Origin: an uncultured Opitutia bacterium
GTDB lineage: Bacteria > Verrucomicrobiota > Verrucomicrobiia > Opitutales > Opitutaceae
Assembly: GCA_903902745.1 (NCBI GenBank)
Contig: CAIUWA010000030.1
Span: forward strand, 1 to 42,188
Direction: 5' to 3'
DNA: 42,188 nt
The position numbers were made by a program, and so were the translations under genes. The notes beneath the pieces were generated by a model. The model searched no databases. It had not been told where the DNA came from and saw only the letters and a program-made list of their open reading frames with translations. Below are positions 38,483 to 41,372 of the stretch, in pieces; position 1 is the first letter of the stretch, and every line of letters begins with the position of its first letter.

Positions 38483-38644
38483 GGAATTTGGAATTGGGAG
38501 TTTGTAATTAGTAAAAAACGCGCTCGTGTAGGAGTGTCGCTCACGCACGCCTAAGATCCTTCGCGCGTCAGCAATGGGAAGGAAAGGGGGACGGCCCAAT
38601 TCCTCCGCTGCCACCCAATTCCCAATTCCAAACTACTAATTCCC
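38483..38644. repeat. 162-bp GGAATTTGG inverted repeat before the nuclease-helicase
   Basis: GGAATTTGGAATTGGGAGTT on the left is matched in the complement of the right end (CCCAATTCCAAACTACTAATTCCCC). Between them lies a smaller hairpin (GTAGGAGTGTCGCTCACG...). It fills the gap between recO and the nuclease-helicase and uses the same 7-8-nt words as 1069-1155. Confidence 0.8.
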
Positions 38645-38666
38645 CGTGGCCCATGGCCGCGTCCCC

Positions 38667-41372
38667 ATGCAGTTTGATCTCAATCAGCGCACCGCCAGCC
38701 TGGGAGTCGGCGACTTCGCCGACTTCACGCTCGGCCCGCGCGATGGCGGCGACGGCTCGCAGGGATTGTGGCGCGCCCAGCTCGGCACGCACTGGCACCA
38801 GCAGCTCCGCGCCCAAACCGCGAGCGAACAGCCCGGCGCCGAGTTCGAGATTCCCATCACAGGCCAGATCTTCCACCGCGGCTGGACTATCACGCTCACC
38901 GGCCGGATCGACCAGCTACTCTCGGCTCCAAGCTCCCCTCTAAAAAGAGGGGTGCCCACCGGGCGGGGTGTGTCTTCGGATCCGCCCCCGATCGTCTCGA
39001 CAAACGAGGAAGTGCCCACGCCACCCGCGCTGCTCCTCCGCGAAATCAAAACCGTCACCCGCCCCCTGCCCATCGAAGAACGCGAACTGCGCGCCGACTA
39101 CCCAAGCTATTTCATCCAGCTCGCGACTTATGTGGCCCTCTGGCGCATTTCGCCACGCGCCACGACCCCGACGAGCTCCACGCTCCGCGCAGAGCTGGTC
39201 TTCGTCGAAGCCGGCAGCGGACTGGCTCAGACCGTCACTCTCACACCGGCGGACGACGCGCACTTTCGCACACAACTCGAACGTGTCGCCGATTTTCTCG
39301 ACCTCCGCTGGCGCGCGCGTGAGCGGTTGCGCCAGCTGCGCTTCCGGCCGGCCTTCGCCGCGCCCCGTCCCGGCCAGGAAACCACCCGCGCCGACCTCGA
39401 CCGCGCCCTGACGGAGCATCACGGCCCGATCCTGTTCGAGGCCCCCACCGGCTTCGGCAAAACCGGGATGCTCCTCGAGTGCGCCCTCGGCCAGCTCCAA
39501 GCCGGTCACTTCGAGCGGGTGCTCTACCTCACCAGTAAATCCACCGGCCAGCTGCAGGTCGTTCGGACGCTCGCGGGAATGACCGCGAGCGTAGTTGAAA
39601 GTCCGAAGTTGAAAGTTGAAAGCCCATCCGGTTCCGGACCTTCAACTTTCAACTCTCAACTTTCAACCGCCTCCGCCACGTCGGTGGCCGTCTGGCATGT
39701 ACGCAACAAGGCCGAGCATTGCGTGAACCACACGTTTCACTGCGTGCGCGAGGAGTGCGTGTTCCTCAACGGCGCGGAGGAGCGGTGGCAGCAGAGCGGT
39801 CTGGCGCGGTTTTATCTCTTCGAAAATGAACCGCGCGATCTTGAGACCCTGCGGGCCGCCGGGCGGGCGGCCACGATCTGTCCCTACGAAATCACGCGGG
39901 CGGCGCTGGCGTTCAACGACGTGTGGATCGGCGACTACAATTATGTCTTCGCCCCGCGCAACCGCGGCCTGTTCTACGACCAGCCCGGCTTCGAGCCGGC
40001 GCGCACGCTGCTCATCCTCGATGAGGCCCACAACCTGCCCTCGCGCGTGGCCGACGCGCATTCCCATGTGGCGCTAGCCGACGAAGCCCGCGGGCTCCTG
40101 ACCGAACTCGATCACCTGCACGCCGCCGCGCCGCTGCTGCGCGCCTGGGAAAGTTGGACAAAGCTTCTGGCCGCATTGATCCCCGTCGACGCGCTCGATC
40201 CCGCCCTGGAGGCCGATGTCACCGAGACGCTCACACGCATCGCCGACCAGCTGGCCGCGACCCCGCCTGACTCCGCCGCACTCGGGCCGCATTTTGCCGG
40301 CCTGCTGTGGCAGATCCCCGAATTCGTCGACTGGCTGGCAAACGCCAAGTTGAAGAAACTCCTGTGGTGCCCGCGCGCCGGCGAGCTGCATTTCACCTGT
40401 TTCGACGCCGCCGACGCCATCGCCGAAACGCTCGGCGCCTACGGCGGCGTGATCTTCGCGAGCGCGACGCTGTCGCCCGTCGCGGAGTTTGCCGAGAGCT
40501 GTGGGCTTCACGCAGCCGACACACCCCGCCCGTTGGGCACCCCTCTTCTTAGAGGGGAGTCTGACTCCGGCTCCCCTCTAGAAAGAGGGGTGGCGCAACG
40601 CGACGGGGTGTGTCGCCTCGTCACCGCCCACACCCCCTGGCGAGCCGGCGCCTACGATATCGCCTTCGACGCCCGCGTCGACACGAGCTTCCACCAGCGC
40701 GCAAAGTACCACGCAACTACCGCCGCTACGGTCGAAGCACTCCATGCTGCCGCGACGCGGAAACCCCAAATTTCAAATCACAAATCTCAAATCGACCATA
40801 CGCATGCGGTCGCAATCTTCTTTCCGAGCTACGCTTACGCCGAGGCGATCCAGCGCGCATTGGACAACGCCGGCTCCGTGTTACGCGTCGCCCTGCAGCC
40901 TCGCCTGCGCGACCTCGCGGCGCAGGCGGACTGGGTCGAGGAGTCACTCGTGCTCTCCGATGCGCTCTTTCTAGTCTTGGGCTCGAGCTTCGCCGAGAGC
41001 ATCGACCTCCTCGGCGGCCGCGTGACGCACGCGATGGTGGTCGGTCCCGCCCTCCCCGAAGTCAACGCCGTGCAGCGCGCCCGCCTTAACGAACTCTCCG
41101 CCCTCGGCCGCGAGGAGGCCTTCCGCCGCGTTTATCAAATCCCCGGCATGACCAAGGTGAACCAGGCGCTGGGCCGCCTCGTACGCGCCCCCGGCCAGCG
41201 CGCCTGCGTCATCCTCCACTGCCAACGCTTCCTCGAGCCCAGCTACGCCCGCCTGCTCGCGCCCGATTATCAGCTCGGGACCAATATCCTGGACAACGCC
41301 GGCCTCACCGACTGGCTCGCGCGCGACTTCACGGCGTCGCCTCAAATCGATCCACCTTCATCTCCCGGCTGA
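38667..41372 (+). CDS. PD-(D/E)XK nuclease fused to XPD/DinG-type helicase
   Basis: The product is 901 aa. Residues about 45-215 are a Cas4/RecB-like nuclease: Asp82 (GRIDQLL), Glu126/Lys128 (REIKTV) and Gln151 (QLATYVAL). The helicase follows: motif I APTGFGKT (259-266), motif II DEAH (452-455) and late GRLVRAPGQRACVI. Cys352, Cys359, Cys364 and Cys405 could hold the [4Fe-4S] cluster of this superfamily. It likely unwinds DNA and trims ends during repair. Four inserted repeats are coded in frame: residues about 89-103, 310-334, 618-650 and 699-709; the first lies between nuclease residues Asp82 and Glu126. ATG at 38667 was preferred to GTG at 38646. Confidence 0.88.
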   Translation: MQFDLNQRTASLGVGDFADFTLGPRDGGDGSQGLWRAQLGTHWHQQLRAQTASEQPGAEFEIPITGQIFHRGWTITLTGRIDQLLSAPSSPLKRGVPTGRGVSSDPPPIVSTNEEVPTPPALLLREIKTVTRPLPIEERELRADYPSYFIQLATYVALWRISPRATTPTSSTLRAELVFVEAGSGLAQTVTLTPADDAHFRTQLERVADFLDLRWRARERLRQLRFRPAFAAPRPGQETTRADLDRALTEHHGPILFEAPTGFGKTGMLLECALGQLQAGHFERVLYLTSKSTGQLQVVRTLAGMTASVVESPKLKVESPSGSGPSTFNSQLSTASATSVAVWHVRNKAEHCVNHTFHCVREECVFLNGAEERWQQSGLARFYLFENEPRDLETLRAAGRAATICPYEITRAALAFNDVWIGDYNYVFAPRNRGLFYDQPGFEPARTLLILDEAHNLPSRVADAHSHVALADEARGLLTELDHLHAAAPLLRAWESWTKLLAALIPVDALDPALEADVTETLTRIADQLAATPPDSAALGPHFAGLLWQIPEFVDWLANAKLKKLLWCPRAGELHFTCFDAADAIAETLGAYGGVIFASATLSPVAEFAESCGLHAADTPRPLGTPLLRGESDSGSPLERGVAQRDGVCRLVTAHTPWRAGAYDIAFDARVDTSFHQRAKYHATTAATVEALHAAATRKPQISNHKSQIDHTHAVAIFFPSYAYAEAIQRALDNAGSVLRVALQPRLRDLAAQADWVEESLVLSDALFLVLGSSFAESIDLLGGRVTHAMVVGPALPEVNAVQRARLNELSALGREEAFRRVYQIPGMTKVNQALGRLVRAPGQRACVILHCQRFLEPSYARLLAPDYQLGTNILDNAGLTDWLARDFTASPQIDPPSSPG
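38933..38974. repeat. CTCCCCTCTnnnnAGAGGGG element, single arm, in the nuclease domain
   Basis: CTCCCCTCTAAAAAGAGGGG forms a hairpin and is followed by GGCGGGGTGTGTC. It is the right-arm version of the larger element at 40518-40614. It is in frame, coding SPLKRGVPTGRGVS, between the first and second nuclease residues. Confidence 0.8.
39594..39667. repeat. GTTGAAA-word inverted repeat in the helicase
   Basis: GTTGAAAGTCCGAAGTTGAA on the left and the complement of TTCAACTCTCAACTTTCAAC on the right pair around a CG-rich loop. It is in frame and codes VESPKLKVESPSGSGPSTF and on. It stands after motif Ia of the helicase, before the cysteines. Confidence 0.85.
40518..40614. repeat. 97-bp long inverted repeat in the helicase
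   Basis: GACACACCCCGCCCGTTGGG at the left and the right end read backwards match for about 40 nt, with a second inner hairpin on each arm (CCCCTCTTCTTAGAGGGG and CCCCTCTAGAAAGAGGGG). It is in frame, coding DTPRPLGTPLLRGESDSG and on. The half copy is at 38933-38974. Confidence 0.88.
40762..40793. repeat. CAAATTTC-word tract in the helicase
   Basis: CCCCAAATTTCAAATCACAA with CTCAAATC follows the 7-nt pattern of the GGAATTT family. It is in frame and codes KPQISNHKSQI, a hydrophilic linker in the C-terminal helicase half. Confidence 0.7.

Follow-up and report, generated by a model that had tools for sequence, protein, structure and literature searches.

How does a conserved enzyme come to carry several different repeats within its coding sequence, and does their presence mean that the gene is decaying? 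This question is raised by a nuclease-helicase gene in a stretch of 42,188 nt (the window) from an uncultured Opitutia bacterium of the family Opitutaceae (contig CAIUWA010000030.1). An initial annotation of this DNA described four in-frame repeat insertions of at least three families in the gene. We found all four, with the frame open throughout. They fall into two classes (double hairpins and heptad arrays) or three word families (A, B and C), and, as that annotation had supposed, all three families recur elsewhere in the genome (G000, a draft of 52 contigs). We think it probable that repeats of the two classes entered the gene at different times, and that selection spared those events that kept the frame, introduced no stop codon and lay in loops. 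The gene and its four inserts are:

38667..41372, + strand: gene for a nuclease (D...ExK) and an iron-sulfur (FeS) XPD/DinG-like helicase, assigned from Pfam, fold and invariant residues
38933..38974, + strand: insert 1, a half copy (one arm) of family A, 95% complementary to 40518-40559
39594..39667, + strand: insert 2, an inverted pair of heptad arrays of family B, (GTTGAAA)n / (TTTCAAC)n, with arms 81% complementary
40518..40614, + strand: insert 3, a complete family A element of 97 nt, a REPIN-like inverted doublet of the same family as insert 1
40761..40794, + strand: insert 4, an array of the heptad AAATYTC, family C (AAATCTC words), recognized by word recurrence and a lag-7 scan

The inserts lie in predicted loops of an XPD/DinG-like helicase

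The gene encodes 901 amino acids in one uninterrupted open frame (908 from an alternative GTG start at 38646). The protein matched Pfam DEAD_2, Helicase_C_2 and ResIII above their cut-offs, and its helicase was structurally closest to the DinG of Finegoldia magna (9kqh; template modelling score 0.64 by query). DEAD_2 and Helicase_C_2 domains with an XPD/DinG fold place it in the XPD/DinG superfamily. It scored 36.2 bits against the NCBIfam DinG equivalog, whose cut-off is 598; rad3 had the best E-value in that search, yet was below its own cut-off. The N-terminal part had no Pfam match, and we take it to be a nuclease from its D...ExK motif. Asp82, Glu126 and Lys128 of this motif are unchanged across 42 aligned sequences, as are four cysteines (C352, C359, C364 and C405).

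All four inserts are predicted to sit in loops. The AlphaFold model (predicted local distance difference test score, pLDDT, 82; predicted template modelling score 0.82) has no helix or strand at residues 87-121, 307-341, 612-649 (except 616-618) and 699-714, and pLDDT is below 50 within parts of the first three of these stretches. Insert 1 is within site S1 (residues 86-121), flanked by two beta strands of the nuclease part (73-86 and 122-130). Because Asp82, Glu126 and Lys128 are invariant, we place it between residues of the nuclease, in agreement with the proposal that it separates Asp82 from Glu126. Insert 2 is at site S2 (residues 310-334; pLDDT below 50 at 325-334), in the loop 307-341 ahead of the FeS cysteines. 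Insert 3 is at site S3 (residues 618-650; pLDDT below 50 at 618-644), and insert 4 is at site S4 (residues 699-710), in the loop 699-714. The segments are missing from many orthologues and read as disordered linkers, as first suggested. The gain in length was put at about 90 residues; we counted 79 in alignment columns absent from most rows, and about 100 by subtraction from the shortest orthologues.

Inserts 2 and 3 are also present in a congener, genome G002 (locus L026), which lacks insert 1 and has a segment unlike insert 4 at S4. Degenerate forms of insert 2, judged by eye, occur in G017, G060 and others. Because inserts 2 and 3 are common to G002, and insert 2 appears decayed in further genera, both predate the species. 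An assembly or binning artefact might be suspected in a draft genome, particularly as most of the named relatives are metagenome-assembled; the presence of two inserts in the congener and the retention of the frames make this extremely improbable.

The repeat families recur across the genome

The family A unit is 97 nt, with inverted arms ACACACCCCG...CCCCTCTnnnnAGAGGGG around a short variable spacer; some copies consist of one arm, and some differ in the interior. There were 15/17 matches in the genome (forward/reverse) compared to 0/0 for the reversed pattern. A shorter pattern gave 25/25 matches compared to 18/18 in its reversed control, so its two-mismatch matches are not specific, and four of them (C14:47250, C14:132909, C33 and C48) were set aside by judgement as likely chance. 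Twelve clear places remained, ten between called genes and two in genes, both of the latter within the helicase gene alone. Family A is patchily distributed: it is abundant in G000, G002 and G071 and near control level in most others of 75 genomes. G071 also has a family A-like segment at S1 (locus L011).

RAYT-driven spread of family A is possible but found no support in two draft genomes. Draft genome G000 had one partial match to Y1_Tnp (PF01797; 29.3 bits, above the Pfam cut-off, positions 17-81 of 121), not near a family A place, and draft G002, which has more family A copies, had none; G071 was outside this search. We therefore call family A REPIN-like only.

We scanned a 442-kb sample of G000 (L232-L251) for tandem arrays, using gene calls from our own codon-usage script here and for the placement of families A and B. 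There were 46 arrays at lag 7, compared to 0, 8, 19, 6, 0 and 0 at lags 5, 6, 8, 9, 10 and 11, a clear excess of 7-nt arrays over other periods. The lag-7 arrays were approximately 10-fold denser in intergenic DNA (28 in ~60 kb) than within genes (18 in 382 kb, spread over 10 of 342 called genes). For 21 of the 46 there was an inverted partner (at least 75% reverse-complement identity, within 250 bp), compared to 0 of 46 in a reverse-only control. Heptad words vary among the elements of this one genome; the two arms of one element match, and the interiors between them look unrelated by eye.

Family B (TTTCAAC) occupies ten places in the genome. Three are in genes (the helicase, DnaE and a DTW-domain gene) and seven are between called genes, one of them touching the 3' end of a gene. 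The reversed pattern (11/11 versus 12/12) is uninformative as a control because TTTCAAC backwards is a rotation of itself. Family C gave 30/18 matches compared to 3/1 for the reversed pattern. By the tally of coding and intergenic copies suggested by the initial annotation, most family A and TTTCAAC copies are between genes, and a minority are within them.

Heptad richness as a family-wide trait was unsupported by samples of relatives, which had 0 (G002), 1 (G017), 1 (G064), 0 (G091) and 0 (G076) arrays per 80 kb; Escherichia coli had 0 in 50 kb. Because G000 is far richer in heptads than these relatives, the current burst looks lineage-specific, with older inserts spread over the family.

Orthologues carry different repeats in the same loops

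A helicase match was found in 95 genomes, G000 included, and the gene was fetched from 69 of the 94 others. Leaving out L037, L052 and L058 (cut or split) gave 66 orthologues, and 67 rows with the window gene. Eighty named loci, less 20 exact duplicates and 4 partial copies, added 56 rows, among which near-identical ones may remain. The 123 rows, own gene included, are nearly all from Opitutaceae.

Over the 67 rows, the length of S1 to S4 had minima of 1, 5, 5 and 0 residues and maxima of 50, 65, 115 and 38. The 220 inserts of at least 8 residues in the 123 rows were confined to 13 positions, chiefly S1 (23 inserts), position 134 (31), S2 (46), S3 (64) and S4 (32). On a FastTree tree, in which several long branches were flagged, presence and absence at these five positions required at least 17, 17, 28, 21 and 24 changes, respectively. 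The four segments had been expected to appear as gaps in orthologues, with insertions of relatives at different sites. The first expectation held for many rows; the second did not: insert sites are for the most part shared between genera.

The insert DNA shows a 7-nt period not seen in other parts of these genes. Self-match of the 202 inserts of at least 30 nt was 0.359 at lag 7 and 0.345 at lag 14. Shuffled sequences gave 0.29, and control pieces taken at random from the same genes over their full length, with any inserts, gave 0.281 and 0.279. A strong heptad or a long stem was present in 25.2% of the 202; the frequency was 3.0% for pieces of the same genes and 0.7% after codon shuffling. 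With strict cut-offs, heptad arrays were present in 19.8% of inserts and long stems in 6.9%; the respective values for the control pieces were 2.5% and 0.5%. The repeats at the shared loops vary by genus and include heptads of other words, ~20-bp palindromes and GC-rich hairpins. For example, TTGTAACCTAATAGGTTACAA-type palindromes occupy S2 in G041 and G064. The palindrome TGTNACCTANTAGGTNACA occurs as a dispersed repeat, with up to 45 copies (G041), in 28 of 75 Opitutaceae genomes, and the reversed control for this S2 family was zero in all genomes but one.

The repeated use of the same sites in many genera raises the possibility that insertion was directed to DNA sites that happen to lie in loops. 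The location of both in-gene family A copies (2 of 12 places) in the helicase gene is in keeping with this, as is the similarity of insert 3 to its G002 copy (8 of 97 nt different, while third positions of the gene differ by 42%). Directed insertion seems unlikely, given that the sites are shared by different repeat families; no common target sequence was noticed, without a dedicated test for one.

Two side observations concern S3 in other loci. GSELAR peptides are present there in L028, L058, L181, L183 and L228, and in L028 and L058 the S3 DNA is a GGGAGCGAGCTTGCTCGC-type hairpin, which resembles the Pseudomonas repetitive extragenic palindromic (REP) core. A frameshift caused by an insert was considered for G028 (L058) and rejected: the frame breaks ahead of S3, at some point from residue 549 to 607, and the break cannot be linked to an insert.

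Other conserved genes carry in-frame heptads

Besides the helicase, nine array-bearing genes with Pfam assignments were found in G000: those for DnaE, MutL, an RsmB/F methyltransferase, a CcoG-like FixG_C/Fer4_18 protein, a biotin/urea-type carboxylase, a MetH activation domain, a lipoyl E2, a sulfatase and a DTW protein. Eight came from the 442-kb sample and the DTW gene from the TTTCAAC search; one more array-bearing gene (L242) had no Pfam assignment. The helicase gene is thus not alone, and in-frame insertion is not peculiar to one relaxed gene.

We compared orthologues for two of the nine, the CcoG-like gene and DnaE. The CcoG-like gene contains ~53 residues of inverted heptads that are absent from all 19 orthologues compared; in 14 of these, by eye, a linker of ~7-12 residues takes the place of the insert. 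The position of the DnaE insert is a hot spot, which other genera fill with arrays, heptads of other words by eye.

Heptad arrays could alternatively have been made in place, by 7-nt slippage and copying of arms by template switching, with no mobile unit. The words differ between elements while the arms of each match (21 of 46 arrays partnered, 0 of 46 in the control), and the interiors look unrelated, all of which this would explain; polymerase slippage has been proposed for 7-nt repeats, as cited in PMC4679880. Three points argue the other way. The CcoG-like gene shows an insert set against a short linker, family A, clearly dispersed as a unit, occupies the same loops, and length steps of 7 or 14 nt would shift the reading frame. 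We regard formation in place as possible and less likely than insertion. With a similar degree of reserve, we suggest that inverted heptad arrays (varying word, complementary arms, unrelated interior) might be an undescribed class of element and a steady source of disordered segments for Opitutaceae core enzymes.

The helicase gene is constrained

Relaxed selection on this gene was one of two explanations offered for the inserts at the outset. The load is indeed high: inserted residues per row per 1000 core residues were 63.8 in the helicase, 25.9 in DnaE and 8.3 in the PgpH-like gene of the window (17 genomes common to all three sets, plus our own), or 52.9, 20.0 and 6.4 on all rows, with 28 of 29 fetched PgpH-like loci and 29 of 29 DnaE loci retained. 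The helicase is the extreme case, though other genes carry in-frame heptads too. DnaE and the CcoG-like gene are not neutral controls because they were picked for an insert in their G000 copy.

The nonsynonymous and synonymous divergence (dN and dS) from G002 was 0.162 and 0.844 for the helicase (ratio 0.19; 853 aligned codons), 0.090 and 0.602 for the PgpH-like gene (ratio 0.15), and 0.080 and 0.523 for DnaE (ratio 0.15). A separate dN/dS for the S3 segment came from a misalignment and is disregarded. The helicase ratio is slightly above the other two. There was one open frame over the matched region in 66 of the 69 fetched loci; two of the others were cut by contig ends and one was split. 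Because dN/dS is 0.19 and the catalytic residues are invariant, the gene does not appear to be under relaxed selection, and we consider relaxation or decay very unlikely. The second explanation, a mechanism producing in-frame events only, is not needed, as selection can explain retention of the frame.

How the inserts may have arisen

Repeats of the two classes, the ~97-nt REPIN-like inverted hairpin doublet and the tandem heptads, often in inverted pairs with unlike interiors, would land or grow in many places at random. Selection would tolerate the copies in surface loops that keep the frame and are free of stops, and these would be translated as disordered linkers. The insert DNA would later decay to ordinary-looking loop sequence. 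The loops of the helicase may be unusually tolerant, such that the process is recorded at the same sites across Opitutaceae. We infer both the role of selection as a filter and the direction, insertion followed by decay; such an account agrees with the apparent decay of insert 2 in other genera.

Several observations weigh against this reading. About three in four of the 202 inserts lack a strong heptad or hairpin at the cut-offs used, so a repeat origin is shown for a minority and presumed for the others. The CcoG-like gene had no match in either of two congeners, and its insert is therefore undated. Stop codons gave no clear signal of a filter (sense arrays within genes, 2 of 18; intergenic strands, 11 of 56). 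Where the GTTGAAA arm would have a TGA, the window has CCG and DnaE has TCA, in frames preselected as open.

The two remaining points concern S3. At least 34 of the 64 S3 cases (27 by pattern and 7 by eye) have a conserved LTKRDTKKLFRQLTSAAELL-like (LTKR-type) segment that is absent from the window gene. We therefore reject S3 as a pure insertion site. Because this segment may be ancestral, the S3 counts mix loss and gain and need to be discounted. In addition, no 97-nt window of the gene is as conserved as the S3 element: against the 8 of 97 nt noted above, windows of the helicase gene differ from G002 by a minimum of 9.3% and a median of 21.6%, and insert 3 has 4 of 32 third positions changed. 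Such conservation is unexpected because plain inheritance and decay does not predict it. It could be due to homogenization between copies, constraint at the level of DNA, or parallel insertion. Orthologous intergenic family A pairs differ more than insert 3 (17 of 104 columns; ~13 of 91 without end gaps). As a separate observation, one such element (L079 2943-3051 versus L313 1335-1569) is in opposite orientations by eye, with a longer interior in G002.

The low divergence of the S3 element, and its strong computed fold as RNA, would also be consistent with inserts kept for a function, either as protein linkers or as DNA or RNA hairpins acting on expression. Among orthologues the presence, length and sequence of inserts shift constantly, and many have just 1-8 residues at S1 and S4. 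We consider retention for function improbable, and continue to favor insertion of repeats filtered by selection.

Relation to known repeats

Insertion of repeats in frame is known from Rickettsia and, in another form, from Borgs; the heptad version appears to be new. An Rfam scan of the window at gathering cut-offs matched a tRNA and none of the repeats. Rickettsia palindromic elements (RPEs) are described as several families in frame within unrelated conserved genes, coding extra peptides (PMC10969869). The Opitutaceae repeats likewise belong to several families, with copies scattered over the genome and some read in frame within conserved genes. The Rickettsia elements are palindromes of ~150 bp, whereas those here are heptad arrays and 97-nt doublets, several families are present in one gene, and the same loops are reused across genera.

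REPINs have two inverted conserved arms and a variable spacer and are mostly intergenic (PMC3116915). Family A shares the inverted arms, the variable spacer, a length of ~97 nt and a location mostly between genes with REPINs, and differs in the scarcity of Y1_Tnp (a single partial match in G000 and none in G002).

The STRR of cyanobacteria are heptanucleotide repeats. Others are TAACTGA in Beggiatoaceae and GGGAATC in Xanthomonas (PMC4679880 and PMC4692102). There, as here, 7-nt units are in tandem and mostly intergenic. In contrast, the genome studied here has many words, often in inverted pairs with unlike interiors, and some copies are in frame within core genes. Like the present inserts, Borg tandem repeats inside genes give disordered protein regions with the frame kept (PMC9879509). 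Their unit lengths in open reading frames are divisible by three, whereas with the 7-nt unit here only the total length preserves the frame. No earlier report of in-frame heptad inserts in Opitutaceae was found in a search limited to open-licence literature.

With ~120 orthologues, the same loops and several repeat families, these genes provide a replicated record of how non-coding repeats turn into protein sequence within conserved enzymes, in a host family known here mainly from environmental metagenomes. The gain of sequence in enzyme loops thereby becomes testable, and a class of inverted heptad arrays is flagged that calls for an explanation. Insertions in such genes are by themselves no evidence of gene decay.

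Further repeats

An additional array pair is upstream of the helicase gene:

38483..38637, no strand assigned: inverted heptad pair (GGAATTT/AATTCCC words), arms at 38483-38498 and 38614-38629, 7-nt period read by eye

The 19 arrays at lag 8 in the 442-kb sample are octads, some of them in inverted pairs. Eighteen are between called genes, and 14 of the 19 belong, by eye, to a separate CTTTTCAG octad family.

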